Shown here one piece after another: positions 2,455-63,873 of a DNA stretch of 64,000 nt. Positions within the stretch are counted from its first letter, which is position 1. Each line of letters begins with the position of its first letter. The DNA is from Limnomonas spitsbergensis (lineage: Eukaryota > Chlorophyta > Chlorophyceae > Chlamydomonadales), in contig JAYJMM010000072.1 of NCBI GenBank assembly GCA_037349105.1, positions 248,001 to 312,000 of the forward strand, written 5' to 3'. The notes beneath the pieces were generated by a model. The model was given only the letters and a program-made list of their open reading frames with translations. It was not told where the DNA came from and did no database searches. Both the position numbers and the translations under genes were made by a program.

Positions 2455-5400
2455 ATGCAGTTCCTGAAGGCTCCGTCCGGGCGAATTGCGCACCATAGAC
2501 AGCTCAAGGCCTCCAGCTCGGTTGTTTCCACACCAACATCTTCCAATTGCCACCGGCTGCTTCCAGCACGAGGTCTAATTGTGAGCGCAGCCAAGCTGGG
2601 TGACGCTCCCCTGTTTGGTGACAGCGGATCTAGTAGCTTTCTTGGAGTAGGTGCAGGAGCTAGCGGTACACCTACAGCCGCCGCAGTGAAGCCCAACCTC
2701 GATGAAATTACTTTAGCCTCGGAGGTGAGAGCAGGGGATCGAGCAGCATCTGGATCCGGTGGCTAGATCTAGCATTAGCTCGCCTGGACAGAACCGGAGC
2801 ATGGGGGAGGTGCCTGCCAGCGAGGTGCGCGGGGATCACCAGCGGGAAATGTCGGTAGGGACGCCGAGATCCCCAGTTCCCTTCCATCGAGAAGGATGCA
2901 TTCATATTTTAATGCCTGTCCTCGATTGAAATTGGAATGAATGTGGGAATAATGGTTCAGCAGTGCAGTTCTATCACTAGCCGCAGAATCATCTGGGTCG
3001 GGGACAGACAGACGGATAGATAAGACCCCATGCAGGACAGGGGAGATTTCCCACCAGCGAGGATCATGGGGATAACAAGCAGGGGCGGCTGGATCTTCCA
3101 GACGCAATTTTTTACCTGGACTTAAATTGAAATTATTGGGACGAATGTACCCGTAGCCAAGAGCACTGCCGCGTGCACGCTCCATTGGCTGGGTTGCACT
3201 GCGCTGAGCCAAGGGCCTGCAGAATCGTGGCTGGATTGTAGCTGAATTGTACCTACGTGTCACCTCCCCGGACTGGGCTAGAATGCTGGATTATGAGGGA
3301 TATGTTTGGGGAATCATGGCTGGATTGTAGCTGAATTGTACCTACGTGTCCCCTCCCCAGACTGGGCTAGAATGCTGGATTATGAGGGATATGTCTAAGG
3401 CAGGCTGTTACCGAGTGGCTGGATTGTAGCTGAAGCATATCTTGGATACCGTACATTCCCGTCCAGGCTAGGTTGGATTACAAGAAATCAAGAATGTTGC
3501 TCATAGCTGTCAACTTCTGACAGGCTAGACCGTAGCAGAATTGTACCTGGATTGTAGCTGAATTGTAGCTGAATTGTAGCTGAATCGAAGCTGGATTGTT
3601 GCTGAAGCATCCGCAATACATCTCCCATCCAGACTGGGTGGCAAGAAACTTCCAAGGGAGCTGTTCAAGGCAGGCAATTACTGAATGGCTGAATTGTAGC
3701 TGAATCAGCTCGGGAAGATTCCCCTACCAGACTGGGTTGGATCACACGAAGCTTAAGAGAGCCGCTAAAGGCAATCAAATGCCGAGAGGATAAATTGTAA
3801 CTGACTTGTAGCTGAATCAGCTTTGACATATTCCCCTACCAGACTGGGCTGGATCATACAAAAGAGATCTGCTCACAGAAATCAAATGCTGAGAGGCTGA
3901 ACTGTAACCGAATTGTAGCTGAATTTCAGCTGAAGCCTCTTGAATACATCCTCCACCCAGGCTGGGCTGGATTATACAAAACTAAGAGATCTGCTCAAGG
4001 CAGGCGAATACCGACTAGCTGATGATGAGCAACGTGCACTCCTTATCAAGCTGGCAGGTGAGAGAGCAGGGAGAATGAGGACGGGTGGTGGGTGGGCAGC
4101 ATGAGGATAGGGGAGGGTGGGTGTGAGGTCAAGTGAGAGGGCAGGGAGAATGATGACAATTGGTGGGCGGGCAGCACAAGGATATTTGATTGGTGGGGGT
4201 GGGGGCATGAAGTATGAGGGCAGGCGAGTGGGCGGGAAGTATGAGGGCAGGCGAGTGGGCGGGAAGTATGAGGGCAGGCGAGTGGGCATGAAGTATGAGG
4301 GCAGGCGAGTGGGCGGGAAGTATGAGGGCAGGCGAGTGGGCATGAAGTATGAGGGCAGGCGAGTGGGCGGGAAGTATGAGGGCAGGCGAGTGGGCCGGAA
4401 GTATGAGGGCAGGCGAGTGGGCATGAAGTATGAGGGCAGGCGAGTGGGCCGGAAGTATGAGGGCAGGCGAGTGGGCCGGAAGTATGAGGGCAGGCGAGTG
4501 GGCATGAAGTTTGAGGGCAGGCGAGTGGGCGGGAAGTATGAGGGCAGGCGAGTGGGCGGGAAGTATGAGGGCAGGCGAGTGGGCGGGAAGTATGAGGGCA
4601 GGCGAGTGGGCGGGAAGTATGAGGGCAGGCGAGTGGGCCGGAAGTATGAGGGCAGGCGAGTGGGCCGGAAGTATGAGGGCAGGCGAGTGGGCCGGAAGTA
4701 TGAGGGCAGGCGAGTGGGCGGGAAGTATGAGGGCAGGCGAGTGGGCCGGAAGTATGAGGGCAGGCGAGTGGGCGGGAAGTATGAGGGCAGGCGAGTGGGC
4801 GGGAAGTATGAGGGCAGGCGAGTGGGCATGAAGTATGAGGGCAGGCAAGTGGGCCGGAAGTATGAGGGCAGGCGAGTGGGCATGAAGTATGAGGGCAGGC
4901 GAGTGGGCGGGAAGTATGAGGGCAGGCGAGTGGGCGGGAAGTATGAGGGCAGGCGAGTGGGCATGAAGTATGAGGGCAGGCGAGTGGGCGGGAAGTATGA
5001 GGGCAGGCGAGTGGGCCGGAAGTATGAGGGCAGGCGAGTGGGCGGGAAGTATGAGGGCAGGCGAGTGGGCGGGAAGTATGAGGGCAGGCGAGTGGGCGGG
5101 AAGTATAAGGGCAGGCGAGTGGGCCGGAAGTATGAGGGCAGGCGAGTGGGCGGGAAGTATGAGGGCAGGCGAGTGGGCGGGAAGTATAAGGGCAGGCGAG
5201 TGGGCGGGAAGTATGAGGGCAGGCGAGTGGGCCGGAAGTATGAGGGCAGGCGAGTGGGCCGGAAGTATGAGGGCAGGCGAGTGGGCCGGAAGTATTAGGG
5301 CAGGCAAGTGGGTGGAAAGCAAGAGGGCAGGTGAGTGGGTTGGAAGTATGAGGGCAGGTGGGGGGTGGGGGTGGGGGCATGAAGTATGAGGGCAGGCAAG

Positions 5401-8400
5401 TGGGCGGGAAGCAAGAGGGCAGGTGAGTGGGTGGGAAGTATGAGGGCAGGTGAGACTTGCGTTTCTCAATTACCTGGAAGGTTAGAGGACTCAGGCGTGT
5501 GAGGTGTCTCATCTATGACTTGGCAGAGGGGGCTTCAGAGGGGGCTGGAGGCTGTGGTTTGGGTGGGCAGGGATGGCTGGGTTGGCAGAAGATGTCGAAA
5601 CCAATCATTGTTGAGGGTGGGGGGTTTCGAACTCCTGCAGCTTTTCCTTATGGATGCGGTGGGAAAATGCATGAAGCGCGCTACTCTTTTGGCAGCAATA
5701 CAAGCACATTTCCTGGGCTGCAATCACCGTGCCATGAAAGAGGGAATCTGCACGGAACCTGCATGGAACTTGCATGGAACCTGCATGGAATCTGCATACA
5801 ATCTGCATGGAACCTACATAATAGTTGCATGGAATCTGCATACAATCTGCATGGAACCTACATAATAGTTGCATGGAATCTGCTTATCCCGCCAGCTGGC
5901 AGGACTCTTTGGAATGTTTATTGAAGTGCGCGCTATACCAGTTTGTGGAGAGGGGCCGCCGGGCGGCCACCTCTGGACCGATGGGGACCAAATCTTGACC
6001 AGGCCCACAGCTGGTAGCTCAAACAGCAGGCAGGAGTGGATGTCCCAGTACCCCCTCAGGCCCTCGGGCGGCACTGCGGCAGGTAGGCCATCCCTGGACC
6101 GATGGGGACCAAACCTTGATCGGCCTATGGCCAGAGGCCGGTGCAGATGGGTATCATTGGTCCTGATGCCGTGATGTAGCTGAAAGAGTTGAATGAGCTG
6201 AACAGTAGCTGAAGCTGTAGCTGAAATAATTGTTGTTCCTGACAGGCTCCGAAGCCGTCAAGCGAGGTTGGGTCTACTTCGCTGAGGTCAAGGGCATGCC
6301 CATCGCTGACCTGCGGACCATGGATGCGTTGTGAGTTGCATCCGAAGGGTTGTGTTTGTATTTTAAAAAGTTGTGAGCTGCTTGCGAAGTGTTGGTTCAA
6401 AGTTATAGCACTGCAAGCTGTGTTGTTGGTGAGCCGCCTTCCGAGTCCGTTAGATTGCAATTGTAATTTTGACAATCTGCATTTTAATTTTGCTGTGTGC
6501 TGCACTGCCGCAGATACCTTAAAAATTGCCTGCCATTGTATTTGAATTTATTGTTTGTTATTTTCCCATTTGTTTTCATTCGCGGGATACAGAATGGACG
6601 GGACCCCTCGATTCCGACTGGAAACTGGCGTGGACATTCTGGTATTCTGGTACCGCAAATTTGCTTTGGCCTCGTAATTAACGCTGTTTGGGGATATGAG
6701 GGATCCATGGATTTACTAAATGTCGATTGTCGACGCCAGTTTCCAGTCTGGAATTGAGAGTTTTTGTCGACAGTTTGCCTTGAGGGCAGCATAAAAAAAA
6801 ATGTTTCGATGGCCGAGGGGAGGCAAATCAAATCAAATCTACGGCATTCTGGCATTCTGGTATCCTGATATATTTCACCCCTGAACAACGTTACTAATGA
6901 GGGAGGCAGTATGAGGAACACACCTCATACTCCAGTTTAATTACTGCCATGTGGGTTGACCCTACAACTGTTATCCTCTTTCTGATGGCCACACCACACC
7001 CTCATCCTGTTGCAGGTGGCCACCCTTTACACTCAACCCTCATCCTGTTGTAAGCGGTCACTCTAAACCTTGCAAACCTTATCCTGTCTCAGGTGGAAGA
7101 AAGCCAGTGGTGGCAAGTTCGGGTACAGCGTGCAGAGAGATATGTGGTACCAGCAGCAGAAGCGGTGAGCCAAGGAGGGGAGGGTTACGGGAATGTGCCG
7201 TAAGAGGGTCCTTTTGAGCACAAAGTCAACTTGCGTACATGGAAACATGTGGTGCCAGCAGTAGAAGCGGTGAGCCAAGGAGGGGAGGGTTACGGGAATG
7301 TGCCGTAAGAGGGTCCTTTTGAGCACAAAGTCAACTTGTGTACATGGAAACATGTGGTACCAGCAGTAGAAGCGGTGAGCCAAGGAGGGGAGGGTTACGG
7401 GAATGTGCCGTAAGAGGGTCCTTTCGAGCACAAAGTCAACTTGCGTACATGGAAACATGTGGTACCAGCAGTAGAAGCGGTGAGCCAAGGAGGGGAGGGT
7501 TACGGGAATGTGCCGTAAGAGGGTCCTTTAGAGCACAAACTTTACTTTCTTGTACATGAAGATATGTGGTACAAACGGTAGAAGCGGTGAGCCAAGGAGG
7601 GGGGTTACGGGAATGTGCCGTAAGAGGGTCCTTTTGAGCACAAAGTCAACTTGTGTACATGGAAACATGTGGTGCCAGCAGTAGAAGCGGTGAGCCAAGG
7701 AGGGGAGGGTTACGGGAATGTGCCGTAAGAGGGTCCTTTTGAGCACAAAGTCAACTTGTGTACATGGAAACATGTGGTACCAGCAGTAGAAGCGGTGAGC
7801 CAAGGAGGGGAGGGTTACGGGAATGTGCCGTAAGAGGGTCCTTTTGAGCACAAAGTCAACTTGTGTACATGGAAACATGTGGTACCAGCAGTAGAAGCGG
7901 TGAGCCAAGGAGGGGAGGGTTACGGGAATGTGCCGTAAGAGGGTCCTTTTGAGCACAAAGTCAACTTGTGTACATGGAAACATGTGGTACCAGCAGCAGA
8001 AGCGGTGAGCCAAGGAGGGGAGGGTTACGGGAATGTGCCGTAAGAGGGTCCTTTTGAGCACAAAGTCAACTTGTGTACATGGAAACATGTGGTACCAGCA
8101 GTAGAAGCGGTGAGCCAAGGAGGGGAGGGTTACGGGAATGTGCCGTAAGAGGTCCTTTCGAGCACAAAGTCAACTTGTGTACATGGAAACATGTGGTACC
8201 AGCAGTAGAAGCGGTGAGCCAAGGAGGGGAGGGTTACGGGAATGTGCCGTAAGAGGGTCCTTTTGAGCACAAAGTCAACTTGTGTACATGGAAACATGTG
8301 GTACCAGCAGTAGAAGCGGTGAGCCAAGGAGGGGAGGGTTACGGGAATGTGCCGTAAGAGGTCCTTTCGAGCACAAAGTCAACTTGTGTACATGGAAACA

Positions 8401-11400
8401 TGTGGTACCAGCAGTAGAAGCGGTGAGCCAAGGAGGGGAGGGTTACGGGAATGTGCCGTAAGAGGGTCCTTTTGAGCACAAAGTCAACTTGTGTACATGG
8501 AAACATGTGGTACCAGCAGTAGAAGCGGTGAGCCAAGGAGGGGAGGGTTACGGGAATGTGCCGTAAGAGGTCCTTTCGAGCACAAAGTCAACTTGTGTAC
8601 ATGGAAACATGTGGTACCAGCAGTAGAAGCGGTGAGCCAAGGAGGGGAGGGTTACGGGAATGTGCCGTAAGAGGGTCCTTTTGAGCACAAAGTCAACTTG
8701 TGTACATGGAAACATGTGGTACCAGCAGCAGAAGCGGTGAGCCAAGGAGGGGAGGGTTACGGGAATGTGCCGTAAGAGGGTCCTTTTGAGCACAAAGTCA
8801 ACTTGTGTACATGGAAACATGTGGTACCAGCAGTAGAAGCGGTGAGCCAAGGAGGGGAGGGTTACGGGAATGTGCCGTAAGAGGGTCCTTTTGAGCACAA
8901 AGTCAACTTGTGTACATGGAAACATGTGGTACCAGCAGTAGAAGCGGTGAGCCAAGGAGGGGAGGGTTACGGGAATGTGCCGTAAGAGGTCCTTTCGAGC
9001 ACAAAGTCAACTTGTGTACATGGAAACATGTGGTACCAGCAGTAGAAGCGGTGAGCCAAGGAGGGGAGGGTTACGGGAATGTGCCGTAAGAGGGTCCTTT
9101 TGAGCACAAAGTCAACTTGTGTACATGGAAACATGTGGTACCAGCAGTAGAAGCGGTGAGCCAAGGAGGGGAGGGTTACGGGAATGTGCCGTAAGAGGGT
9201 CCTTTTGAGCACAAAGTCAACTTGCGTACATGGAAACATGTGGTACCAGCAGTAGAAGCGGTGAGCCAAGGAGGGGAGGGTTACGGGAATGTGCCGTAAG
9301 AGGGTCCTTTTGAGCACAAAGTCAACTTGTGTACATGGAAACATGTGGTACCAGCAGTAGAAGCGGTGAGCCAAGGAGGGGAGGGTTACGGGAATGTGCC
9401 GTAAGAGGGTCCTTTTGAGCACAAAGTCAACTTGTGTACATGGAAACATGTGGTACCAGCAGTAGAAGCGGTGAGCCAAGGAGGGGAGGGTTACGGGAAT
9501 GTGCCGTAAGAGGGTCCTTTTGAGCACAAAGTCAACTTGTGTACATGGAAACATGTGGTACCAGCAGTAGAAGCGGTGAGCCAAGGAGGGGAGGGTTACG
9601 GGAATGTGCCGTAAGAGGGTCCTTTTGAGCACAAAGTCAACTTGCGTACATGGAAACATGTGGTACCAGCAGTAGAAGCGGTGAGCCAAGGAGGGGAGGG
9701 TTACGGGAATGTGCCGTAAGAGGGTCCTTTTGAGCACAAAGTCAACTTGTGTACATGGAAACATGTGGTACCAGCAGTAGAAGCGGTGAGCCAAGGAGGG
9801 GAGGGTTACGGGAATGTGCCGTAAGAGGGTCCTTTTGAGCACAAAGTCAACTTGTGTACATGGAAACATGTGGTACCAGCAGTAGAAGCGGTGAGCCAAG
9901 GAGGGGAGGGTTACGGGAATGTGCCGTAAGAGGGTCCTTTTGAGCACAAAGTCAACTTGTGTACATGGAAACATGTGGTACCAGCAGTAGAAGCGGTGAG
10001 CCAAGGAGGGGAGGGTTACGGGAATGTGCCGTAAGAGGGTCCTTTTGAGCACAAAGTCAACTTGTGTACATGGAAACATGTGGTACCAGCAGTAGAAGCG
10101 GTGAGCCAAGGAGGGGAGGGTTACGGGAATGTGCCGTAAGAGGGTCCTTTTGAGCACAAAGTCAACTTGCGTACATGGAAACATGTGGTACCAGCAGTAG
10201 AAGCGGTGAGCCAAGGAGGGGAGGGTTACGGGAATGTGCCGTAAGAGGGTCCTTTTGAGCACAAAGTCAACTTGTGTACATGGAAACATGTGGTACCAGC
10301 AGTAGAAGCGGTGAGCCAAGGAGGGGAGGGTTACGGGAATGTGCCGTAAGAGGGTCCTTTTGAGCACAAAGTCAACTTGTGTACATGGAAACATGTGGTA
10401 CCAGCAGTAGAAGCGGTGAGCCAAGGAGGGGAGGGTTACGGGAATGTGCCGTAAGAGGGTCCTTTTGAGCACAAAGTCAACTTGTGTACATGGAAACATG
10501 TGGTACCAGCAGTAGAAGCGGTGAGCCAAGGAGGGGAGGGTTACGGGAATGTGCCGTAAGAGGGTCCTTTTGAGCACAAAGTCAACTTGCGTACATGGAA
10601 ACATGTGGTACCAGCAGTAGAAGCGGTGAGCCAAGGAGGGGAGGGTTACGGGAATGTGCCGTAAGAGGGTCCTTTTGAGCACAAAGTCAACTTGCGTACA
10701 TGGAAACATGTGGTACCAGCAGTAGAAGCGGTGAGCCAAGGAGGGGAGGGTTACGGGAATGTGCCGTAAGAGGGTCCTTTTGAGCACAAAGTCAACTTGC
10801 GTACATGGAAACATGTGGTACCAGCAGCAGAAGCGGTGAGCCAAGGAGGGGAGGGTTACGGGAATGTGCCGTAAGAGGGTCCTTTTGAGCACAAAGTCAA
10901 CTTGTGTACATGGAAACATGTGGTACCAGCAGTAGAAGCGGTGAGCCAAGGAGGGGAGGGTTACGGGAATGTGCCGTAAGAGGTCCTTTCGAGCACAAAG
11001 TCAACTTGTGTACATGGAAACATGTGGTACCAGCAGTAGAAGCGGTGAGCCAAGGAGGGGAGGGTTTCGGGAATGTGCCGTAAGAGGGTCCTTTTGAGCA
11101 CAAAGTCAACTTGCGTACATGGAAACATGTGGTACCAGCAGTAGAAGCGGTGAGCCAAGGAGGGGAGGGTTACGGGAATGTGCCGTAAGAGGGTCCTTTT
11201 GAGCACAAAGTCAACTTGCGTACATGGAAACATGTGGTACCAGCAGTAGAAGCGGTGAGCCAAGGAGGGGAGGGTTACGGGAATGTGCCGTAAGAGGTCC
11301 TTTTGAGCACAAAGTCAACTTGCGTACATGGAAACATGTGGTACCAGCAGCAGAAGCGGTGAGCCAAGGAGGGGAGGGTTACGGGAATGTGCCGTAAGAG

Positions 11401-14400
11401 GGTCCTTTTGAGCACAAAGTCAACTTGTGTACATGGAAACATGTGGTACCAGCAGTAGAAGCGGTGAGCCAAGGAGGGGAGGGTTACGGGAATGTGCCGT
11501 AAGAGGTCCTTTCGAGCACAAAGTCAACTTGTGTACATGGAAACATGTGGTACCAGCAGTAGAAGCGGTGAGCCAAGGAGGGGAGGGTTACGGGAATGTG
11601 CCGTAAGAGGGTCCTTTTGAGCACAAAGTCAACTTGTGTACATGGAAACATGTGGTACCAGCAGTAGAAGCGGTGAGCCAAGGAGGGGAGGGTTACGGGA
11701 ATGTGCCGTAAGAGGGTCCTTTTGAGCACAAAGTCAACTTGTGTACATGGAAACATGTGGTACCAGCAGCAGAAGCGGTGAGCCAAGGAGGGGAGGGTTA
11801 CGGGAATGTGCCGTAAGAGGTCCTTTTGAGCACAAAGTCAACTTGCGTACATGGAAACATGTGGTACCAGCAGCAGAAGCGGTGAGCCAAGGAGGGGAGG
11901 GTTACGGGAATGTGCCGTAAGAGGGTCCTTTTGAGCACAAAGTCAACTTGTGTACATGGAAACATGTGGTACCAGCAGTAGAAGCGGTGAGCCAAGGAGG
12001 GGAGGGTTACGGGAATGTGCCGTAAGAGGTCCTTTCGAGCACAAAGTCAACTTGTGTACATGGAAACATGTGGTACCAGCAGTAGAAGCGGTGAGCCAAG
12101 GAGGGGAGGGTTACGGGAATGTGCCGTAAGAGGGTCCTTTTGAGCACAAAGTCAACTTGCGTACATGGAAACATGTGGTACCAGCAGTAGAAGCGGTGAG
12201 CCAAGGAGGGGAGGGTTACGGGAATGTGCCGTAAGAGGGTCCTTTTGAGCACAAAGTCAACTTGCGTACATGGAAACATGTGGTACCAGCAGTAGAAGCG
12301 GTGAGCCAAGGAGGGGAGGGTTACGGGAATGTGCCGTAAGAGGTCCTTTTGAGCACAAAGTCAACTTGCGTACATGGAAACATGTGGTACCAGCAGCAGA
12401 AGCGGTGAGCCAAGGAGGGGAGGGTTACGGGAATGTGCCGTAAGAGGGTCCTTTTGAGCACAAAGTCAACTTGTGTACATGGAAACATGTGGTACCAGCA
12501 GTAGAAGCGGTGAGCCAAGGAGGGGAGGGTTACGGGAATGTGCCGTAAGAGGTCCTTTTGAGCACAAAGTCAACTTGTGTACATGGAAACATGTGGTACC
12601 AGCAGTAGAAGCGGTGAGCCAAGGAGGGGAGGGTTACGGGAATGTGCCGTAAGAGGGTCCTTTTGAGCACAAAGTCAACTTGTGTACATGGAAACATGTG
12701 GTACCAGCAGTAGAAGCGGTGAGCCAAGGAGGGGAGGGTTACGGGAATGTGCCGTAAGAGGGTCCTTTTGAGCACAAAGTCAACTTGTGTACATGGAAAC
12801 ATGTGGTACCAGCAGCTAGAAGCGGTGAGCCAAGGAGGGGAGGGTTACGGGAATGTGCCGTAAGAGGTCCTTTTGAGCACAAAGTCAACTTGCGTACATG
12901 GAAACATGTGGTACCAGCAGTAGAAGCGGTGAGCCAAGGAGGGGAGGGTTACGGGAATGTGCCGTAAGAGGGTCCTTTCGAGCACAAAGTCAACTTGTGT
13001 ACATGGAAACATGTGGTACCAGCAGTAGAAGCGGTGAGCCAAGGAGGGGAGGGTTACGGGAATGTGCCGTAAGAGGTCCTTTTGAGCACAAAGTCAACTT
13101 GTGTACATGGAAACATGTGGTACCAGCAGTAGAAGCGGTGAGCCAAGGAGGGGAGGGTTACGGGAATGTGCCGTAAGAGGGTCCTTTTGAGCACAAAGTC
13201 AACTTGTGTACATGGAAACATGTGGTACCAGCAGTAGAAGCGGTGAGCCAAGGAGGGGAGGGTTACGGGAATGTGCCGTAAGAGGGTCCTTTTGAGCACA
13301 AAGTCAACTTGTGTACATGGAAACATGTGGTACCAGCAGTAGAAGCGGTGAGCCAAGGAGGGGAGGGTTACGGGAATGTGCCGTAAGAGGGTCCTTTTGA
13401 GCACAAAGTCAACTTGTGTACATGGAAACATGTGGTACCAGCAGTAGAAGCGGTGAGCCAAGGAGGGGAGGGTTACGGGAATGTGCCGTAAGAGGGTCCT
13501 TTTGAGCACAAAGTCAACTTGTGTACATGGAAACATGTGGTACCAGCAGTAGAAGCGGTGAGCCAAGGAGGGGAGGGTTACGGGAATGTGCCGTAAGAGG
13601 GTCCTTTTGAGCACAAAGTCAACTTGCGTACATGGAAACATGTGGTACCAGCAGTAGAAGCGGTGAGCCAAGGAGGGGAGGGTTACGGGAATGTGCCGTA
13701 AGAGGGTCCTTTTGAGCACAAAGTCAACTTGCGTACATGGAAACATGTGGTACCAGCAGTAGAAGCGGTGAGCCAAGGAGGGGAGGGTTACGGGAATGTG
13801 CCGTAAGAGGGTCCTTTTGAGCACAAAGTCAACTTGTGTACATGGAAACATGTGGTACCAGCAGTAGAAGCGGTGAGCCAAGGAGGGGAGGGTTACGGGA
13901 ATGTGCCGTAAGAGGTCCTTTTGAGCACAAAGTCAACTTGCGTACATGGAAACATGTGGTACCAGCAGTAGAAGCGGTGAGCCAAGGAGGGGAGGGTTAC
14001 GGGAATGTGCCGTAAGAGGGTCCTTTTGAGCACAAAGTCAACTTGTGTACATGGAAACATGTGGTACCAGCAGTAGAAGCGGTGAGCCAAGGAGGGGAGG
14101 GTTACGGGAATGTGCCGTAAGAGGGTCCTTTTGAGCACAAAGTCAACTTGTGTACATGGAAACATGTGGTACCAGCAGTAGAAGCGGTGAGCCAAGGAGG
14201 GGAGGGTTACGGGAATGTGCCGTAAGAGGGTCCTTTTGAGCACAAAGTCAACTTGTGTACATGGAAACATGTGGTACCAGCAGTAGAAGCGGTGAGCCAA
14301 GGAGGGGAGGGTTACGGGAATGTGCCGTAAGAGGGTCCTTTTGAGCACAAAGTCAACTTGTGTACATGGAAACATGTGGTACCAGCAGTAGAAGCGGTGA

Positions 14401-19539: not shown

Positions 19540-19815
19540 GTGTTACACTTCTTGGTGTACTTCTTAAGCCCGATTTTCCTGACCTTCTGTCTAGTATGTT
19601 TGTTTCCTTTCTCTTTGTTGAGGGCTGGGATCTGGACGGCCTTGGATTTCTTCAGACTTCCTCTCCTTTAAAGGATGGACCGTTTCCTTCTCCCTTTTCC
19701 GTCTGTTCTTTTTCTCTCTCCTCTAGTCTTTATTTTCATTTCCTCCCGACCAGGCAGTTGGGCGCCCATGCGGTCGAGCTTTTTCAGCATGTCCCAGAGG
19801 TGTTGTACCATCGAG
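19540..19815 (+). mobile_element. 3' fragment of the retroelement family (untranslated tail)
   Basis: A pyrimidine-rich stretch ends in the reverse of the family's 3'-terminal signature ('ttgggcgcccatgcggtcg', then agctttttcagca, then cccagaggtg). There is no coding part. It is a severely 5'-truncated plus-strand copy. Confidence 0.55.
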
Positions 19816-19834
19816 TTCTTAAGCCAGGAATTGT

Positions 19835-20335
19835 TTTTAGCGCGGTCTCGGCGCGGTCAGCACAGCCGACATATGAGGACGGCGCAATGATCAGCAACCT
19901 GACACACGCTACTGCCAGCGATGCTGGGCTAGGGGACATGGCGAGCATGTGGAGGATGCGCTCCATGCTTGCTTCATATGCCCTAGCATTAAGAAAACAC
20001 TTAGGGAAGGGGAGTGGGTTGGTCCTCCTAAAGACGCTACTGACTTCCACCAGCTATACTGGGGCTGGCATGGGTGTTAGGCCCTGGCTTTTGTGGAACA
20101 TTTAGTCAATCTTGTTAAAGGCTGGTCTCTTGACGGGCTGGGGATACGGTTTGCCTCCCCTTTTTTGTTGTCCTTGTTGTCTTGATGGTGGACACGCTTT
20201 TCTTTATTTTTCTCTCGTGCCTTCTCTCTTAAGTTTCCTAATGCCTAGCAGTTTTTTTGTTACCGACGTGGGTCACGTGGCCGAGCTTTATTGGAGCAGG
20301 GCTGGGGTGTAACGTCATTCACATGGTGCAATGCG
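19835..20335 (+). pseudogene. Degenerate retroelement fragment, plus strand
   Basis: It aligns by eye with the minus-strand fragment at 24146-24721: 'gcgcggtcagcacagccgac', 'gaggatgcgctccatgcttg', 'actgacttccaccagctata' and 'tactggggctggcatgg' blocks in the same order. A pyrimidine-rich tail follows, ending 'cacgtggccgagctttat' and 'gtgtaacgtcattcac'. The reading frame is broken relative to the 191-aa frame. Confidence 0.6.
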
Positions 20336-21680: not shown

Positions 21681-21799
21681 AGGTCTTGCTTCTAGGGATC
21701 AGGCTGACCTGATAGGTGGCGTAAGAGGGATCAAGCCTAAGACTGGGACTTGGTTTCTAGGAATGCCCTCCTCTAATCCGGATTACCTGGAATTGCTAA

Positions 21800-54300: not shown

Positions 54301-57300
54301 GAGCAGCTGTATGGTGTCCTGCGGAGTTATAAGCTAAGGAATGGATGGGGGTGTCAAAATCAGATGTTATAACTTATGTTTATTTGTTTCTGTCAATTTC
54401 CTTGTAGGCACAATCGTCGGCACATCACAGCAGGAGCAGCTGTGAATATATCCTGAGGAGTCAAAAACAAAGGAATCAATGGAATGTTAAAATCTTTTTT
54501 TGTTTTTGTATTTATTTTTGTTTATTTATTAACGTTTATTTCCCAGGTGGCACATCACAGCGGGAGCAGCTGCACGGTGTCGTGAAGGACGCAACACCAC
54601 TCATCCCCCCCACAGCACAACCGGAGAGACTGGATGGTGTTTTAAGGGGCGAGGCAAAGTAGGAGAGTGTCCTGATTCCCGAATGGCTTTCATTCATTAC
54701 GTGCACAGCCCTGAGGAATGTGCGGAACAGGGTACACTGTTTGTTTAGGGTTTGGGGGGCATGACGCACAGTATAAAAGCTTGCTGTTAGCTATCCTTGC
54801 GGGCCATGTAAGACACCCTATACCCTGAAACCAGCCCCCTCCCTCAACCTTACCTGAAGGAAGGGCTTGAGCACTCGCTCCCCTAAAAGCTCCATCACGG
54901 AGAAATTGACCGCGAGCACTTCGTTTACATGGGAGGCTGGCAGCCGTAACCAGGGATGAATCCTGGACTGGACCTGCAGGGTGAAGGGGGGGGAGGGCTT
55001 TCAATAATTGACTGCAAGCACTTCGTTTACATGGGAGGCCAGAGCCGTAACCAGGGATGAATCCTGGACTGGACCTGCAGGGTGAAGGGGGGGGGGAGGG
55101 CTTTCAATAATTGACTGCAAGCACTTTGTCTACATGGGAGGCCAGAGCTGTAACCAGGGATGAATCCTGGACTGGACCTGCAGGGTGAAGGGGGGGGGAG
55201 GGCTTTCAATAATTGACTGCAAGCACTTCGTTTACATGGGAGGCCAGAGCCGTAACCAGGGATGAATCCTGGACTGGACCTGCAGGGTGAAGGGGGGGGA
55301 GGGCTTTCAATAATTGACTGCAAGCACTTTGTCTACATGGGAGGCCAGAGCCGTAACCAGGGATGAATCCTGGACTGGACCTGCAGGGTGAAGGGGGGGG
55401 GGGGCTTTCAATAATTGACTGCAAGCACTTCGTTTACATGGGAGGCCAGAGCCGTAACCAGGGATGAATCCTGGACTGGACCTGCAGGGTGAAGGGGGGG
55501 GGGAGGGCTTTCAATAATTGACTGCAAGCACTTCGTTTACATGGGAGGCCAGAGCCGTAACCAGGGATGAATCCTGGACTGGACCTGCAGGGTGAAGGGG
55601 GGGGGGGGGGGCTTTCAATAATTGACTGCAAGCACTTTGTCTACATGGGAGGCCAGAGCCGTAACCAGGGATGAATCCTGGACTGGACCTGCAGGGTGAA
55701 GGGGGGGGGGAGGGCTTTCAATAATTGACTGCAAGCACTTTGTCTACATGGGAGGCCAGAGCCGTAACCAGGGATGAATCCTGGACTGGACCTGCAGGGT
55801 GAAGGGGGGGGGGGGGGCTTTCAATAATTGACTGCAAGCACTTCGTTTACATGGGAGGCCAGAGCCGTAACCAGGGATGAATCCTGGACTGGACCTGCAG
55901 GGTGAAGGGGGGGGGGAGGGCTTTCAATAAATGACTGCAAGCACTTTGTCTACATGGGAGGCCAGAGCCGTAACCAGGGATGAATCCTGGACTGGACCTG
56001 CAGGGTGAAGGGGGGGGGGGGGGGCTTTCAATAATTGACTGCAAGCACTTCGTTTACATGGGAGGCCAGAGCCGTAACCAGGGATGAATCCTGGACTGGA
56101 CCTGCAGGGTGAAGGGGGGGGGGAGGGCTTTCAATAATTGACTGCAAGCACTTTGTCTACATGGGAGGCCAGAGCCGTAACCAGGGATGAATCCTGGACT
56201 GGACCTGCAGGGTGAAGGGGGGGGGGAGGGCTTTCAATAATTGACTGCAAGCACTTCGTTTACATGGGAGGCCAGAGCCGTAACCAGGGATGAATCCTGG
56301 ACTGGACCTGCAGGGTGAAGGGGGGGGGGGGGGCTTTCAATAATTGACTGCAAGCACTTCGTTTACATGGGAGGCCAGAGCCGTAACCAGGGATGAATCC
56401 TGGACTGGACCTGCAGGGTGAAGGGGGGGGGGAGGGCTTTCAATAATTGACTGCAAGCACTTTGTTTACATGGGAGGCCAGAGCCGTAACCAGGGATGAA
56501 TCCTGGACTGGACCTGCAGGGTGAAGGGGGGGGGAGGGCTTTCAATAATTGACTGCAAGCACTTCGTTTACATGGGAGGCCAGAGCCGTAACCAGGGATG
56601 AATCCTGGACTGGACCTGCAGGGTGAAGGGGGGGGGGGGGCTTTCAATTATTGACTGCAAGCACTTTGTCAACATGGGAGGCCAGAGCCGTAACCAGGGA
56701 TGAATCCTGGACTGGACCTGCAGGGTGAAGGGGGGGGGGAGGGCTTTCAATTATTGACTGCAAGCACTTTGTCTACATGGGAGGCCAGAGCCGTAACCAG
56801 GGATGAATCCTGGACTGGACCTGCAGGGTGAAGGGGGGGGGGGGGCTTTCAATAATTGACTGCAAGCACTTCGTTTACATGGGAGGCCAGAGCCGTAACC
56901 AGGGATGAATCCTGGACTGGACCTGCAGGGTGAAGGGGGGGGGGAGGGCTTTCAATAATTGACTGCAAGCACTTTGTCTTCATGGGAGGCCAGAGCCGTA
57001 ACCAGGGATGAATCCTGGACTGGACCTGCAGGGTGAAGGGGGGGGGAGGGCTTTCAATAATTGACTGCAAGCACTTTGTCTTCATGGGAGGCCAGAGCCG
57101 TAACCAGGGATGAATCCTGGACTGGACCTGCAGGGTGAAGGGGGGGGGGAGGGCTTTCAATAATTGACTGCAAGCACTTTGTCTACATAGGAGGCCAGAG
57201 CCGTAACCCGGGATGAATCCTGGACTGGACCTGCAGGGTGAAGGGGGGGGGAGGGCTTTCAATTATTGACTGCAAGCACTTTGTCTACATGGGAGGCCAG

Positions 57301-60300
57301 AGCCGTAACCAGGGATGAATCCTGGACTGGACCTGCAGGGTGAAGGGGGGGGGGAGGGCTTTCAATAACTGACTGCAAGCACTTTGTCTACATAGGAGGC
57401 CAGAGCCGTAACCCGGGATGAATCCTGGACTGGACCTGCAGGTTAAGGAGGGAGGCATTTAACTTTTTAATAAGTGGCTGCTTTGTTTACGTGGGAGTAT
57501 GGCAGCCATGACCAGGGCTGAATTCCGGACTGGTTCAGCAGGGTAAAGGAGGGGGGAGGGGGGAGGCATTTTAATAAGTGACCGCAAGCACTTCATTCAC
57601 ATCGGAGGATGGCAGCTGTAACCATGCATTGTTCACGGACTGAGTTCAGGAGAGGGGGGGGGTATGTCATACTTTGTGCACAGAGGAGGGGGGGGGTATG
57701 TCGTACTTTGTGCACAGAGGAGAAGGGGGGGGGTATGTCATACTTTGTGCAAAGAGGAGGGGGGGGGGGGTATGTCATACTTTGTGCACAGAGGAGGGGG
57801 GGGGGGGTATGTCGTACTTTGTGCACAGAGGAGGGGGGGGGGTATGTCATACTTTGTGCAAAGAGGAGAAGGGGGGATAGAGGGGGACGGACGATGTGTA
57901 CTGCGCATCTGTGACAAGCAGGGTGGTGGGGGCAGAGGGAGGGGTTGTTTGTTGGACTATTCGTAGGGCACACGGTGGGGACAGAGGGCATAGGAACTGG
58001 CTACCACAGCCAGTGGTAGCCAGTCCCTCCGGTGGGGTGGATCACGAACATAACAGAACACGGGAGGGGGGGCGCGTCATCAACCAACTGCAGGTTTTTG
58101 GTTCATGTGGTGGCAGGTTGGCAGCTGCAACTGACAGTGGGTCATCGATTGGGCACAGACGGGTGCGAGGGGGAGGCAGATTATAAAACGTTGTCGTCTA
58201 CAATTTGACCTCAGATATTCAGGGCAGGGGCCCGCCTTCACCTGGGGTGGGGTGTGGGTGGGGCAGCGTCCCTCCATGGTCGACTACAATTCAACCTCAG
58301 CGATTCCTGTAAATTGAGCGAGCCTTCACCCAGGGTGGGGTGTGGGTGGGGGGCAGCTTCCCTCCATTGACGGCTGAAATGCAGTCGGGCTATGCCTGTG
58401 TTGAGGGTTGAGGGTTAAGGGTTACGGGTTTTCAGTTTCACCTACACCCCGGTCTAGGGGTCAGGGTCTAGGGTTGAGGGTTTCACCTGCACTCGCTCTA
58501 AATTAAGAGTTCAGGGTTTGACCAGCAACACCGTCAGGGTTTGACCAGCAACACCGTCAGGGTTAAGGGTCACGGGTTTCATCTATATATGCAAAACGTG
58601 GCAGTTGAAAGCCCCATCCCCCCTCCTTCTGCTTTGACGAGCACTCACCTGCCCCCCTGGCCTCGGTAGCACCGCCGCCGCCCCGCTGCTGCTGCCGCCG
58701 CCGCTGTCTCTGATACTGCTGACCTCGGGCTCACAGAGGGAGCGGGTAGTGCTGCTGCCGTTGCGGGCTGGACCACCCTGGCAGTCAAGGCCAGAGCTTC
58801 GGTGACTGGAGGCTGCATCGTCAGCAACAAAGGTACCAAAAGAGGAAGTTTCGGTACCTTGATACCGAAGGCCCTCCTGGTCTGAGAGGACAGGACTGCT
58901 CTCCGGACTGGAGGGGGCAGGGCGTCTACTTTGGCCAGAGGAGACAGGCTTGCCCTCCTGGGCGGGAGAGCCAACAGGGTGCCCGTTTTGACTGGAAGGT
59001 GCTTGGCGTCCATTTTGACTGGAAGAGTCCAGGTCCCCATCTTGGCCAGAAGAGGCCAGAGGTGACGGAGCACTGCTGCTCTCAGGCCTGTTCGGCTGTG
59101 AGCCTCTCTGTTCCAAGGGTGTGGACGGGCGAAATCGTCCTGCGGATGCATCCTCCGGCCTGAGCGCCAGCTGCCCCACGGCGATGCTCATGGCGCGCTG
59201 GAAGAGCCAGGACGCAGACAGCGAGGGCTGCGACACGTACGAAAAGGTGGGAAGCAGGGTTGTGACCGGGGTCAGCCAGATGGCCGGTTTATGCCGGGCC
59301 GGGGTTTATGCTTTTTGGAGGGAGCATTTCAGTCAAAAGGGCGGGAGCATTTCAGGAATGGCGCCTGTTCTTTAGGAGAGATCCTGCCGTGCCGAAGAGA
59401 GATTGTCTGAAAAGGCCAGAAGGGCTAAAAATGCATCGAGGGCTGAGAATGCTAAGTGGGCGTCATTGTTACAGCATCTATACACCCACACAACAACCAT
59501 TGGCTTCACACCATGTTCATACCTGGTAAGGGTGCAGCCATGCCAGGTCACCCTTGCTGAGACGGTCCTCTTTCAGAGCCTTCAAGAAAACGACATAGTG
59601 CAACAATCAAGACACCATTACAGAACAAGATAGAGAGCACGATAAAGGGAAGAGAGAGCCTGCATTACGCCAGGCAGCGAGCAACAAATCGTATCGGAAC
59701 CTGAACTGTAAAGACGGCATGTGGCAATTGGGAAAGCGTTCAACAAACAAGGCAGTGTGTACGATCAAGGGAGAGAGGCGAGCCTGCAACATACAATGCA
59801 GCGAGCAACAACTTGTATCGAAGCCTGCAACAACTTATGTTGGAGCCTGCAGCATTCCATGCAGCGAGCAACATTACTACATTAGGAACAGCTATCACCC
59901 TGAACCTCTTCCTCAGCACTCAAAGCTTGGGGTAGCTGCATCAATGCTAAACCAACAGCGCATTGTGTATTGATCAGCAGGCATGTGGGGAGGGCTTACC
60001 TGGTCAATGGCCACAGTGAGGCGAGGCAGGTGCCGCATAAGGGAGCCAAAGCCGCCAAAGGACAGCGGGCTCTGCGTGGCGCTGGCATCGCCAACCTGGG
60101 AGGCATTCAAATTTAAGCAGCATTGAAATGTACCGGTGGGCAACATTCAAATCTGAAATGTACCGGTGGGCAACATTCAAATCTGAAATGTACCGGTGGG
60201 CAACATTCAAATCCGAAATGTACCGATGGGCAACATTCAAATCTGAAATGTACCGGTGGGCAACATTCAAATCTGAAATGTACCGGTGGGCAACATTCAA

Positions 60301-63300
60301 ATCTGAAATGTACCGGTGGGCAACACTCAAATCTGGAATGTACTGGTGGGCAACATTCAAATCTGGAATGTACCGGTGGGCAGCATTCAAATCTGAAATG
60401 TACCGGTGGGCAACATTCAAATCTGAAATGTACCGGTGGGCAACATTCAAATCTGAAATGTACCGGTGGGCAACATTCAAATCTGAAAGACGCATTTTGT
60501 TTGCTACTAACAGAGTCAGCTGGGATTCATCATGCAAGCATCCATTGTGATTTGCAGCGCTGACACTCCCAACCTGGATAAGGGATTAGGTTGTAGAGTT
60601 TACCTCTAAACCCTAAACTCTTAACACCAAACTCTCTGCAAGCATCCATTGTGATAGGCAGTGCTGGCACTTCCAACCGGGTGGACAGCCGCTGTGAAGC
60701 ACACACTTTTAACTTATGACTGGTATCAGAATCAGACGGGCCGTGTTGCAAACACCCATTGTGATATGAGCAGAGTCCGTCTTGGGGAATGAAATGAGGA
60801 TAACCAGAGAGATCCATCAGTGACTATTTATTTTGCTTGGAGGCACTCCGGCTTGTTTGGGGATCCAAAATTGTAGGTTTGCTACACCGATTTTAAATTC
60901 CTTGATTAAATTACAGGTCTCCATTTAGCAACTATAATTGTTAGCAACTATATTAAGATATGGATCCATTGTCCAAGCTGCTGTAGCGAATGAACATGCA
61001 GTTCACACTTTACAAATTCCAGTGCCACTCATTGAGTCGATGCCACAGTGGCTGTGAGGAAGTGTGGGTGTGGAAGGTGTGGATTAAGGCAGGGATCCAT
61101 CGTCCGAGCTGGTGAATGGTAATGCAGATTACGCGTTCTTCCGGTGAAAGTTCAATGTCAGTGTGGATGGTGCACCTAATAATCTGCTGAAGTGTGGGAA
61201 TGAGTGTGTGGGAGAGAGTGAGAGAGTGATGTCATGAGAGGAAACGAGCAATCAGTTATGGGATGGGCTGGGGAGCCCCAAATCCCAGTAGCCAGATCCA
61301 GATCTGACAAAATATTCTGCCACCCTTGAAAGGCCAGGCCTACCAATGTTGCAGCCCCTCCCCCACACATACCCTCCCACCATCAGACAGCTCCAGAACT
61401 TGCACCATCTTTACACAAATTCCACACTCTTGTTCGCGTATCTACTTGTCATTAATTTCACCCCCCCCCAGAGAGTGCCAGGCGTGGCAGGCTTATGTGG
61501 TCATTACTTTCTGGGGAGGTTCTGGTGTCAACTTCAACAAGAAAGTATTTAACAAGATTGTATTTGAAGTACGGTATTCAACAATACAGTTTTCTTAGTA
61601 CTTAATATGTTGCGGCACACCCACCTGCAGCACCCTGTCCCATGCAGGCTGGAGCGGTCCATTGTTGAAGCACGGGAAAGCGCCAAACAGGACTCTTTGG
61701 AAGGCAAGGGAACCCAACGGCACCTCCTGCACAATCAAGTGAGGGGGGGATCACTCGGGCCTGCACACCTGAGAAACGGGGACAGTGACAAGCAATATGC
61801 TGCAGGGCGACATCCGGGCAATCGGGCCTCCACATTGGAGGGCAAGGGAAATAGAAGATTAGGATCTTCTTGTGCAGGCAAGCGGGGGGGATACACTTAG
61901 ATCTGCAATGCTGGCAAAGGGGGAAAGCGCCGCACAGGTCTCTGCACGAAACTAGGCATGCCCTAGGGGGTGGATGGGGCTAAACCCTAAACAGGCCTCT
62001 CCCTGAGGAAAGAGAAACCAACCAACCAACAGCACACGTCCTGCGTGTGCAAGCGGGATGAAACAGTTGGGTGCTAAGGCAGCCAGCAAACTCCCACCTG
62101 ATGCTTTTGAGACAGACCTCCTAGGATATCAGTCCCTCCTTATATGCCCTGCCTAGAACAGTTCCGCATCATATCCAGCTGGCCAACCCACCTGGCATCA
62201 TATCCAGCTGGCCAACCCACCTGGCATCATATCCAGCTGGCCAACCCACCTGGCATCATATCCAGCTGGCCAACCCACCTGGCATCATATCCAGCTGGCC
62301 AACCCACCTGGCATCATATCCAGCTGGCCAACCCACCTGGCATCATATCCAGCTGGCCAACCCACCTGGCATCCAGGCATGAGTCTCTGAGCTCTTATGC
62401 AGGGAGGGCCGGTCAGGTAGCCAGCAAGCTCCCCCCTGATTCTCAAGAGACAGTCCCCCTTATCCTAAGGCCTCCAAACGCCCAGCCTGAGGCAATGCCG
62501 AGAAGGCCATCCCACCTGGCATGAAGGCATGTGCCCCAAGCTCTTAATCGGCGCTGCTCCCAGGAGGGCCGCTCAGGTAGCCAGCAAGCTCCCCCCTGAT
62601 TCCCAGGAGACAGCCCCCGTTCTATACTAACCCTTCCCAATGTCCAGCCTGAGGCGCTGCCGAGAGGGCCATCCCACCTGAATTAAGGCATGAGTCTACA
62701 GCTCATATCCAGGAGCTGCACCGCGGAGAGCCGGTGCCTTAGCCAGCAAGCTCCCATCTGGGTCCCAACAGGTAGAGGCGCCACGCTCCTCTACCTGTTG
62801 GGTCCTAAATGGACCGCGTGCTAGCCGTCTTGGTGTGGGAGGAGTCCTACACCGGTTGTTTTTGCAGCTCCCCTGATTCCCAGAGATCGTCCCCCTTCTT
62901 TTAACACCTCCCAATGCCCAGCCTGAGGCAATGTCGAGCAGGCCATCGCACCTGGTATTGAGGCATCAATTCGAAGTACTTGTCAAGGAGCTGCTCCAAG
63001 GAGGGCCGCTCGGGATGGGCGTCCGAGTAGGCAAACATGTAGGTGGTACGTGCAGCGCCGCCTTCAGCCGGGAAGGCCTCCCAAAAGAGCTGCGGAAAGG
63101 TCAAGAGAGGGCTGATCAGGGTGGGTGTCCAAGGAGGCAAATGCAGATAGTCTGGTGGTATGAGCGGCACCGCCTTCAGCCGGGAAACCTCCCAGAAGAC
63201 AGGAAGAGAAAGGTAAAGAGCCCGAGAGGGATGCTTATAATGGGTGTCCAAGTAGGCAAATGCAGATAGTCTGGTGTTATGAGCGGCACCACCCTCAGCC

Positions 63301-63873
63301 CGAGAGGCCTCCAAGACAAGCTGCAGATAGTTAAGAGATAGTTAGAGACGGGTGCTCAGGGTGGGCGTCCGTGTAGGCAAATACAGGTGGCCTGGTGGTA
63401 CGTGTGGCACCCCCCCCAGCCAATAAGGCCTCCAAGACGAGCTGCAGAGCGAGGAAGGGAGAGAAGCGTTCCTCAGGTTGGGATGCTTGCACACGCATGT
63501 GGAGTGTGAGCCGAGTTCAAAACAAACCTGCTTCTCTTCTTCCTGTATGTCCTGTATGTTTGCTAGACGGTGCCTAGCATAATCCCTGTCAGGGTGTCAG
63601 GGATCCCGTATATTTAAATACCTAGTCATCGATCAAATATGCCAGCTTTTTTCTTCATTCTACAAACAGTTAGCGGTCAATATTTCGCCCTGGGTGCAGC
63701 CTTCAAGGAAGCCATGCGAGTTCGAACCCGAGTGCAGGCAATCCGAATTGACGGTGGTAGTCTGAGCCTCGAACCGCAGGCCATGTGTCGCCGACCCCGC
63801 ACCTGCATGTCCTGCTCTGCATCTGTGAGTGAGTAGAGCAGGTCCGCCGAGGTATTCCTCTGTTTTGGGAAAC
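51358..63873 (-). CDS. FAD-dependent oxidoreductase of the cyanobacterial/plastid type (3' ten exons; 5' end off the window)
   Basis: Exons in gene order: 63873-63803, 63089-62952, 61726-61625, 60095-60000, 59579-59523, 59227-58649, 54973-54854, 54186-54100, 53343-53218, 51546-51358 (stop). Phases join exactly, giving 520 codons plus stop. From memory the family is a group of FAD/NAD(P)-binding oxidoreductases found in cyanobacteria and plants. Matching blocks include LFWEAFPAEGG, TTYMFAYSDAHPERPSLE, FELMPQYQ, RVLFGAFP, WDRVLQVGDAS, QSPLSFGGFGSLMRHLPRL, SLSASWLFQRAMSIAVGQ, ERVLKPFLQ and the C-terminal RFGSGMDY. QSPLSFGGFG with the preceding GDAS matches the second FAD-contacting segment of this flavoprotein class. 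The N-terminal Rossmann motif must lie beyond 64000. Substrate unknown; plastid location is inferred. Exon 59227-58649 carries a Ser/Pro/Gln-rich insertion. Arrays of its own splice junctions fill its introns. Confidence 0.82.
51570..52345 (-). repeat. 30-bp minisatellite made of the retroelement 3' tail, about 26 units
   Basis: The plus-strand unit is 'catcaggtcaatggcattac' plus 'acctctgggt', matching the retroelement terminus (gtcaatgacgttacacctctggg). The array ends in a genuine element copy: 52320-52375 continues into 'ctgaaaaggctcggctgc' and a purine-rich tail to about 52470. It lies in the last intron of the FAD oxidoreductase gene. Confidence 0.93.
52320..52475 (-). mobile_element. Short retroelement tail adjoining the 30-bp array
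   Basis: The 3' signature plus 'gactgtctggtcggg' and a purine-rich stretch like that at 23390-23480 is seen. No coding part is visible. Confidence 0.6.
52838..52875 (-). repeat. Donor-side echo of the exon at 53343-53218
   Basis: 'actcacccggaaggactctc' plus 'tcaacaccacgggtat' copies the last about 30 bp of the exon and its GTGAGT donor, about 370 bp downstream in gene order. Confidence 0.88.
53380..53740 (-). repeat. Block repeats upstream of the exon at 53343
   Basis: Four 60-90-bp blocks share 'gggggatcaaggcggttga' or 'gcggtcgaccagtg', 'gtgaagggtg' and 'catggggaaatagcagatt'. One end of each resembles the 'ccgacctgg' acceptor region ('gccgacagggtgg', 'gctgacctggagg'). Confidence 0.75.
54290..54650 (-). 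repeat. Acceptor-side echoes of the exon at 54186-54100
   Basis: Four decayed copies (about 54297, 54428, 54558 and 54610) carry 'cagcaggagcagctgtatgg' plus 'tgtcctgcggagt', matching the exon start (GATACTATACAGCTGCTCC in gene sense) and its CAG acceptor. Confidence 0.82.
54940..57460 (-). repeat. About 102-bp acceptor-side array, about 25 units
   Basis: In gene sense each unit is a C-run polypyrimidine tract, 'cttcaccctgcag' acceptor, then about 60 bp of the exon 54973-54854 start ('gtccagtccaggattcatcc', 'ctggttacggc', 'cccatgtaaacgaagtgct') and 'tcaattattgaaagccc'. The real exon is the last unit downstream. Units differ mainly in C-run length and in cgttt/tgtct. Confidence 0.96.
57650..57885 (-). 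repeat. 38-bp array with G-runs, six units
   Basis: Units read 'gtatgtcatactttgtgcac' plus 'agaggagg' and a variable G-run, in the same intron of the FAD gene. No link to an exon edge is seen. Confidence 0.92.
58390..58590 (-). repeat. Degenerate telomere-like tract and duplicated 21-bp unit
   Basis: 'gggttgagggttaagggtt' type sequence is followed by 'gggtttgaccagcaacaccg' twice (58515 and 58537). Confidence 0.8.
60107..60490 (-). repeat. 30-bp array, about twelve units, adjoining the exon at 60095
   Basis: The plus-strand unit is 'aaatgtaccggtgggcaac' plus 'attcaaatctg'. It abuts the real acceptor region 'aacctgggaggcattcaaat', whose 'attcaaat' and 'ggg' elements it shares, so it appears to amplify acceptor-proximal intron. 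Confidence 0.93.
60550..60690 (-). repeat. Two acceptor-side echoes of the exon at 60095-60000
   Basis: 'gcgctgacactcccaacctgg' style and 'gtgctggcacttccaaccgg' style blocks (60557 and 60661) match the exon start plus acceptor 'gctggcatcgccaacctgg'. Confidence 0.78.
60700..61600 (-). other. Non-array part of the FAD gene intron
   Basis: This is mostly unique sequence with a loose duplication ('ggatccattgtccaagctg' near 60962 and 'ggatccatcgtccgagctgg' near 61094). No exon is recognised. Confidence 0.45.
61800..62070 (-). repeat. Acceptor-side echoes of the exon at 61726-61625
   Basis: 'ggagggcaagggaaatagaa' (61837) and the blocks near 61920 and 62000-62060 ('caaccaacagcacacgtcct') resemble 'ggaaggcaagggaacccaac' plus 'ggcacctcctgcac' of the exon start and acceptor. 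Confidence 0.65.
62160..62372 (-). repeat. 29-bp array, seven units
   Basis: The plus-strand unit is 'ccagctggccaacccacct' plus 'ggcatcatat'. In gene sense it carries CCAGGTGGG, resembling the donor of the exon ending at 62952 (CCAG then GTGCGATGG). Confidence 0.92.
62372..62955 (-). repeat. About 165-bp donor-side array of the exon 63089-62952, three to four copies
   Basis: Blocks near 62372, 62510, 62675 and the real site share 'gaggcaatgccgag', 'ggccatcccacctggcatg', 'gcgctgctcccaggagggcc' and 'gctcaggtagccagcaagctc'. That is the exon 3' edge, its donor and downstream intron. Confidence 0.88.
63090..63445 (-). repeat. Acceptor-side array of the exon 63089-62952, three further copies
   Basis: Blocks at about 63112-63205, 63232-63330 and 63355-63450 repeat 'gtgggcgtccgagtaggcaa' and 'gcggcaccgccttcagccgg' plus 'gaggcctccaagacgagctgc', i.e. 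the first about 75 bp of the exon with its acceptor. Confidence 0.9.

Follow-up and report, generated by a model that had tools for sequence, protein, structure and literature searches.

Long introns (medians of 198–343 bp) are found in Chlamydomonas, Volvox, and close relatives, and the mechanism that drives their length is described as likely ancient and, in the accessible part of that study, is not identified (PMC8226300). In some eukaryotes, intron sequence is produced in mass by introners and introner-like elements (PMC9860276), and in potato an RdRp intron was gained through a boundary-crossing tandem duplication that carried splice signals and turned exon sequence intronic (PMC4974935). 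Intronic arrays with units of tens to hundreds of bp in tens of copies are known as minisatellites (variable number tandem repeats), and small direct tandem duplications are generated by Pol alpha-primase/CST fill-in and end joining, those from breaks with overhangs being an established class (PMC8355091). Limnomonas spitsbergensis is a green snow alga whose published genome comprises 260.248 Mb in 124 contigs with a mean intron length of 788 bp (PMC11228838). Here, we analyzed a window of 64,000 nucleotides from this genome (contig JAYJMM010000072.1, positions 248,001 to 312,000), in which the introns of the genes for GUN4, HydEF, and a lycopene cyclase CruP-like protein contain copies of the exon edges that adjoin them (exon-edge echoes). 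An earlier note on this DNA held that introns grow by amplifying their own splice junctions, as a genome-wide habit. The echoes are most probably the recognisable trace of frequent small tandem duplications, placed irrespective of splice sites, that lengthen introns. The accessible open-licence literature yielded no account of exon-edge echoes being pervasive in introns, which does not prove that none exists, and junction arrays are not mentioned in the abstract and covered sections of the genome paper (PMC11228838).

Introns of the window (n = 25; five in GUN4, 12 in HydEF, and eight in the minus-strand CruP-like gene) were modelled by chaining exons with stop-free frames and GT/GC..AG intron ends, with one donor shifted by 1 base afterwards. 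For each junction, the 60 exon bases beside it were locally aligned against the adjacent intron only, and the 99.9% point of 1832 non-cognate pairs was used as cut. The 3′ edge of the upstream exon was copied in the adjacent intron in 12 of the 25 cases, and so was the 5′ edge of the downstream exon (12/25); at a stricter cut, also used for the dyneins described below, the counts were 12 and 10, with either edge copied in 16 of 25 introns. Far exon edges were echoed in 0/16 and 0/17 cases at the 99.9% point (one of each at 99%), and reverse-complemented introns gave 1/25 and 0/25 at 99%. These results confirmed that exon-edge copies in introns are real, and in the window as well as in the dyneins exon edges matched their own introns above the level of mismatched pairs. 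Out of the 24 junctions that it had listed, 21 carried an exon-edge copy above the non-cognate null, namely 9/10 acceptors (60095 failed) and 12/14 donors (4057 and 40971 failed); donor 53218 is among those that passed, tested against the next 1500 bases only, a stretch that may hold further exons, and its status as a junction found no confirmation in spliced alignment. Significant echoes absent from that list were found at donor 37438 and at acceptors 17685 and 61726. The polarity it had described (adjacent edges echoed, far edges not) held, probably because only the outermost junction adjoins intact coding sequence, and so did the wide age range of the copies and a copy number of up to about 89 (89.4 × 105 bp). 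Copying of both edges of an exon, the mark of whole-exon duplication (mutually exclusive exons), was seen neither in the window nor in the dyneins. The arrays are unlikely to be assembly artefacts, because the PacBio reads on which the published assembly rests have a read L50 (32.9 kb; PMC11228838) that exceeds the 9.4-kb array, and because copies differ within most arrays.

The window was selected for the pattern. A second sample was chosen irrespective of repeats: the PF12774 profile gave 89 exon matches in the genome, which were grouped into 16 dynein heavy-chain loci (68.5 kb spans), and introns were called by aligning the loci, with splicing allowed, to a reference that one of them had supplied (85 found and 78 kept, the other seven being dropped for weak flanking exons or a length < 100 bp). 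A first null was rejected as contaminated by paralog similarity (99.9% point 22.9) and replaced by 1648 cross-set pairs. Echoes were present on the donor side in 20/78, on the acceptor side in 18/78, and on either side in 32/78 introns, while 0/1648 cross-set pairs and none of the reversed sequences scored; far exon edges were echoed in 0/55 and 0/57 cases, at a threshold inflated by paralog similarity. Exon-edge echoes are therefore common beyond the window, with donors and acceptors affected alike. Recognisable extra tandem copies made up 30% of the intron bases in the dynein sample (78 introns) and 59% of those in the window. At loci L023–L025 (contig C72, ~178–208 kb), the coding amounts given by a weak predictor recur with a ~12 kb period, which suggests a large segmental tandem duplication.

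The neighbourhood of the junctions was compared with the rest of the introns by the probability of finding a 30-mer a second time. In introns ≥ 600 bp, this probability was 0.50 in the first 30 bp past the donor and 0.49–0.67 out to + 420, and it dipped before the acceptor, with 0.18 for the 30 bp nearest to it, 0.40 for the 30 bp preceding those, and 0.44–0.65 farther away. Into the exons of window and dyneins, it fell in steps of 30 bp from 0.30 to 0.16, 0.04, and 0.02 on the donor side and from 0.29 to 0.12, 0.01, and 0.00 on the acceptor side. The profile has no junction peak and decays to near zero within ~90 bp of exon, with the proviso that it includes intronic copies from junction-spanning arrays, so that a weak peak could be masked; its shape is that expected from ~100-bp units landing anywhere, with wholly exonic ones lost. 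The exonic share of junction-spanning units was consistent with a uniform distribution (Kolmogorov–Smirnov test, p = 0.50, n = 49/58, the nine omitted cases having an exonic share larger than the unit length less 10 bp; donors alone p = 0.15, acceptors alone p = 0.98). Units do not begin at AGGT, which speaks against the slippage at this motif put forward in the earlier note, and we take the equal use of donors and acceptors in the dyneins to argue against mechanisms in which the lariat or the 5′ splice site is the starting point.

In addition, introns were evolved forward in simulation under point mutation, deletion, and tandem duplication at uniformly drawn positions (unit lengths drawn from the observed families, lengths > 300 bp omitted), keeping exons intact and running the same family pipeline. 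The dyneins have 52 families, a junction-spanning fraction of 0.673, and 32 echo introns; the uniform simulation gave 54.0 families, a fraction of 0.605 (standard deviation (sd) 0.08; 4/24 replicates reach 0.673), and 32.9 echo introns (sd 4.2), and five further uniform settings gave fractions of 0.61–0.71. With a twofold junction bias (rate lowered by hand) the fraction rose to 0.73 (sd 0.057; 4/16 replicates at or below the observed value) with 38.8 echo introns, and with a threefold bias to 0.805 (sd 0.041; 0/16 replicates as low as observed) with 43.9. Copy profile, unit-end distribution, and simulation were used together to test for a junction hot spot, which was rejected for the dyneins at a bias of threefold or more. 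Uniform placement suffices for the dyneins, and a mild (about twofold) junction bias would also be compatible with them. The interpretation given in the earlier note is thus partly supported: the habit extends beyond the window, and the junctions do not appear as its preferred target.

The duplications are tandem and direct, with units mostly of ~30–250 bp (median ~100) and no preferred position detected. Within introns they would be tolerated and would sometimes expand to long arrays, by which introns lengthen; wholly exonic ones would mostly be removed by selection, and those straddling a junction would be tolerated, as the outer exon and splice site stay intact and the extra copy lies within the intron. 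Since the exon copy would be held constant by selection, a junction trace should remain recognisable longer than two drifting intronic copies, and introns would seem to copy their own junctions because exon edges are frozen and exon-internal duplications rare. The duplications probably originate from staggered breaks or opposed nicks, with fill-in of both overhangs and end joining; arrays may expand by slippage or unequal exchange within them, and the outermost site would be the one spliced because it pairs, by exon definition, with the splice site at the opposite end of the real exon. The 14.4 kb of dynein exons contained no tandem array of period ≥ 20 bp, and 39 were found in the dynein introns (36.7 kb collapsed) and 30 in the window introns (18.8 kb collapsed). 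In acceptor echoes the exon part was 88.4% identical (11.6% diverged) and the intron part 78.4% (21.6% diverged, p = 0.0014), as expected if one copy is frozen. Dynein introns with echoes were longer than those without (604 vs. 382 bp, p = 0.0012), and echoes occurred in 26/53 introns at positions common to at least two paralogs and in 6/25 at private positions, which points mostly to the lengthening of old introns and not to marks of new ones.

A number of observations weigh against duplications that ignore splice sites. Junction-spanning families were more numerous than plain geometry would lead one to expect, in both sets together (54/75 vs. 30.2 ± 3.7 expected), in the dyneins alone (35/52 vs. 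19.8 ± 3.1), and among the youngest families (8/11 vs. 4.6). The same holds for arrays called by Tandem Repeats Finder (23/113 vs. 14.2 ± 3.2) and for arrays detected from intron sequence alone, in both sets (23/69 vs. 10.5 ± 2.8) and in the window (13/30 vs. 4.0 ± 1.7), those of the dyneins being at 10/39 vs. 6.5 ± 2.2 (z 1.6, not significant). Exon-aware detection shows a clear junction excess; exon-blind detection leaves none of significance in the dyneins, and in the selected window the excess is strong. There, 19/23 families span a junction, compared to 0.50 (0.32–0.71) in the uniform simulation, which produced 13.2 echo introns (range 10–18) for the 16 observed; a threefold bias gave 22.1 echo introns (16–25) and a fraction of 0.61 (0.53–0.72), which the observed 19/23 exceeds as well. 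The simulation settings were chosen by hand, and the simulated introns were somewhat longer (median 477 vs. 425). Donor echoes showed no frozen-template difference (84.5% vs. 83.2% identity, i.e., 15.5% vs. 16.8% diverged, p = 0.45), window introns with and without echoes did not differ in length (p = 0.71), exons do hold one array (21-bp × 2.4, in HydEF) and a few of period 12–15, and the stretch 19600–33000, in which no gene was recognised, has an array density per kb far below that of introns. The geometric expectation ignores frozen exon copies and the merging of families, hence the simulation through the same pipeline, and the excess in the window may be caused by masking of low-complexity internal arrays in the pipeline together with the choice of the window.

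The excess over plain geometry, which is strongest in the window, is what an amplification directed at junctions would produce, with R-loops, reverse-transcribed splicing intermediates, or AGGT slippage starting duplications at splice sites, and a twofold bias would fit the dynein simulation. We nevertheless regard such a mechanism as improbable, given a copy profile without a junction peak, unit ends that do not cluster, donors used as often as acceptors, and the overshoot of the threefold simulation in both spanning fraction and echo introns. More weight, short of making it likely, is given to duplication tied to genes or transcription (breaks, open chromatin) and not to junctions, with introns hot and intergenic DNA not, a possibility that is compatible with uniformly placed duplications and would narrow them. 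It draws on the contrast between the array counts of introns and those of the stretch without recognised genes, whose scarcity of arrays implies that duplication may not be uniform over the whole genome and may reflect a gene-associated process. Against this stand the facts that it is a single stretch with six of its open reading frames (ORFs) searched, that a 0.9-kb piece of it may be repeat-derived (26900–27800 has diverged matches elsewhere in the genome, at 70–90% identity over short pieces), and that only 3/22 12-kb bins were array-poor in the 264-kb neighbourhood, where bins were counted without a gene map. A codon-usage exon finder tried on this neighbourhood covered 1292/4466 known exon bases and was not used. 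We are more doubtful still that gene-associated duplication, far denser in introns than in intergenic DNA and at most about twofold at junctions, is the main engine of intron lengthening in this lineage of green algae, with splicing proceeding correctly past dozens of intact decoy sites.

Selection could also maintain the decoy junctions, whether as a reserve of splice sites or because alternative splicing uses them, and their dinucleotides are conserved no less well than neighbouring ones (AG 0.88 vs. 0.75, p = 0.009; GT 0.78 vs. 0.70, p = 0.14). Compared to the same dinucleotide elsewhere in the copies, though, the difference was not significant (donor 0.82 vs. 0.77, p = 0.36; acceptor 0.91 vs. 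0.74, p = 0.16), and we consider selection of this kind very improbable; there is no clear signal that decoy splice sites are either purged or preserved. About the least credible reading takes the arrays for introns still being gained (Rogers/Hellsten model) or for inserted introners. The potato intron offers a precedent for gain, but 26 of the 32 dynein echo introns lie at positions common to paralogs and the other six at private ones, and, as to introners, a 28-mer of the GUN4 unit (the only unit tested) occurs 71 times without mismatch in the genome, always within C72:255354–264083. Duplications placed irrespective of splice sites remain the preferred explanation.

The features of the window are collected in Table 1. 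The GUN4 model relies on exon chaining and Pfam, and spliced alignment covered HydEF and the CruP-like gene. The best named homolog of HydEF is that of Chlamydomonas sp. UWO 241 (62% identity over 100% of the typed protein), and 11/12 of its introns were recovered with each of two references (12/12 combined). For the CruP-like gene, called an FAD oxidoreductase in the earlier note, homologs are named lycopene cyclase CruP or FAD-dependent oxidoreductase, and no Pfam match was found; 7/8 introns were recovered with each of two references; exact recovery failed for the intron 58648–54974, at whose end lies the 24.7-copy array. A Pfam search of 8/323 listed ORFs of the window gave no match.

Table 1 Genes, tandem arrays, and exon-edge echoes of the window (positions within the 64,000 nucleotides; scores from the echo test)
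Feature	Position	Strand	Evidence or remark
GUN4 gene, 6 exons / 5 introns	2455..19274	+	Pfam GUN4 PF05419, E = 3.8e-50; stop-free exon chain
GUN4 intron 1, 4 degenerate copies of acceptor 3961 with exon 5′ edge	2725..3960	+	score 14.5
GUN4 intron 2, 27-bp × 42.6 array	4209..5358	+	donor 4057 echo not significant (score −0.4)
105-bp × 89.4 array with 23 bp of exon 3′ edge and donor 7164	7142..16515	+	98% match; score 13.8
36-bp × 16.7 array with 20 bp of exon 3′ edge and donor 17823	17804..18406	+	score 12.0
Comparison stretch, no gene recognised (6 ORFs searched in Pfam)	19600..33000	.	2 arrays of period ≥ 20 in 13.35 kb
HydEF gene, 12 introns modelled	35863..49250	+	homology and spliced alignment to algal proteins
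HydEF intron 1, exon edge and donor 36052 present in a second copy	36053..36443	+	score 29.4; also holds a separate internal 21-bp array
36-bp and 132-bp arrays containing donor 36541 copies	36538..36946	+	score 12.9
HydEF intron 3, edge copies of donor 37438 and acceptor 38918	37439..38917	+	scores 29.4 and 19.9; also contains an internal 46-bp array
HydEF intron 4, decayed donor 39026 copies and weak acceptor 40300 copy	39027..40299	+	scores 10.5 and 5.0
38-bp × 26.6 array	41016..42026	+	40971 exon echo not significant (−3.1); resembles intron start
89-bp × 3.9 array with 31 bp of exon and donor 42599	42569..42910	+	score 16.0
127-bp × 3.5 array with 50 bp of exon and donor 43393	43344..43789	+	score 36.2
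Copies of acceptor 44442 and exon 5′ edge	44150..44441	+	score 21.2
Copy of exon edge and donor 44646	44647..45059	+	score 36.9
105-bp × 4.4 array with 36 bp of exon and GC donor (45245|GCAAGC)	45210..45677	+	score 27.5
Array with 49 bp of exon and donor 46053	46005..46367	+	score 33.7
~99-bp array with acceptor 47972 and exon 5′ edge	47107..48021	+	score 38.2
CruP-like gene, 9 exons modelled	53218..63873	-	homologs, spliced alignment
Intron with acceptor 54186 edge copies	54187..54853	-	score 8.0
103-bp × 24.7 array with acceptor 54973 and 70 bp of exon	54904..57442	-	score 40.2; acceptor not recovered exactly
30-bp × 12.2 array near acceptor 60095	60124..60488	-	exon echo not significant (−1.1)
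Intron with donor 62952 edge copies	61727..62951	-	score 11.0; contains 29-bp × 7.2 and 160-bp arrays
Intron with three degenerate acceptor 63089 edge copies	63090..63802	-	score 19.5

Further exons of HydEF are suggested by spliced alignment at 33120–35863 (upstream) and 49210–49956 (downstream), and the tandem repeat inside one of its exons (43045–43095) lies in a Ser/Ala-rich insert and has a unit length that is a multiple of three. HydEF intron 10 (window 45246) is a GC-AG intron whose GC donor is repeated within its 105-bp array, and intron 2 of dynein locus L038 likewise begins CAG|GCAAGC. AAG acceptors in place of the usual pyrimidine-AG were seen at 59580–59999 of the window (minus strand), in L029 intron 2, and in L044 intron 3. 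Upstream of GUN4 (100–518), an array of 55-bp units is followed by a 5-bp CAGTA array.

In L. spitsbergensis, the lengthening of introns can be read directly from recognisable extra copies, and what stands out is the frequent tandem duplication of ~100 bp that lengthens old introns while leaving decoys not visibly purged. Since every junction duplication should keep one copy frozen, exon edges would serve as a natural clock from which duplication rates could be obtained with a single genome; the decoy splice sites offer a natural test of how the spliceosome chooses the outermost site. For the reading of genomes in general, the case calls for caution, as conserved edges beside drifting DNA make random duplications seem targeted.

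Compared to the systems described above, the alga shares with the potato RdRp intron a tandem duplication that includes splice signals and makes exon sequence intronic, and differs in that the potato case, as far as the accessible part of that report goes, is a single new intron, whereas here old introns are lengthened, often by many copies and in 32 of the 78 dynein introns, by units that do not begin at the junction. The small direct tandem duplications attributed to Pol alpha-primase/CST fill-in were obtained from Cas9-nickase breaks (e.g., with 43-bp overhangs) in mouse embryonic stem cells, and a similar origin in the alga would be an extension of that system. Introners create introns by spreading copies of themselves across many genes, while the units described here look local and derived from their own gene, judging from the one GUN4 unit. 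The arrays have units of at least 10 bp within introns, as intronic minisatellites do, and differ from these in that many units reach into the exon, so that the arrays carry exon edges and splice sites.

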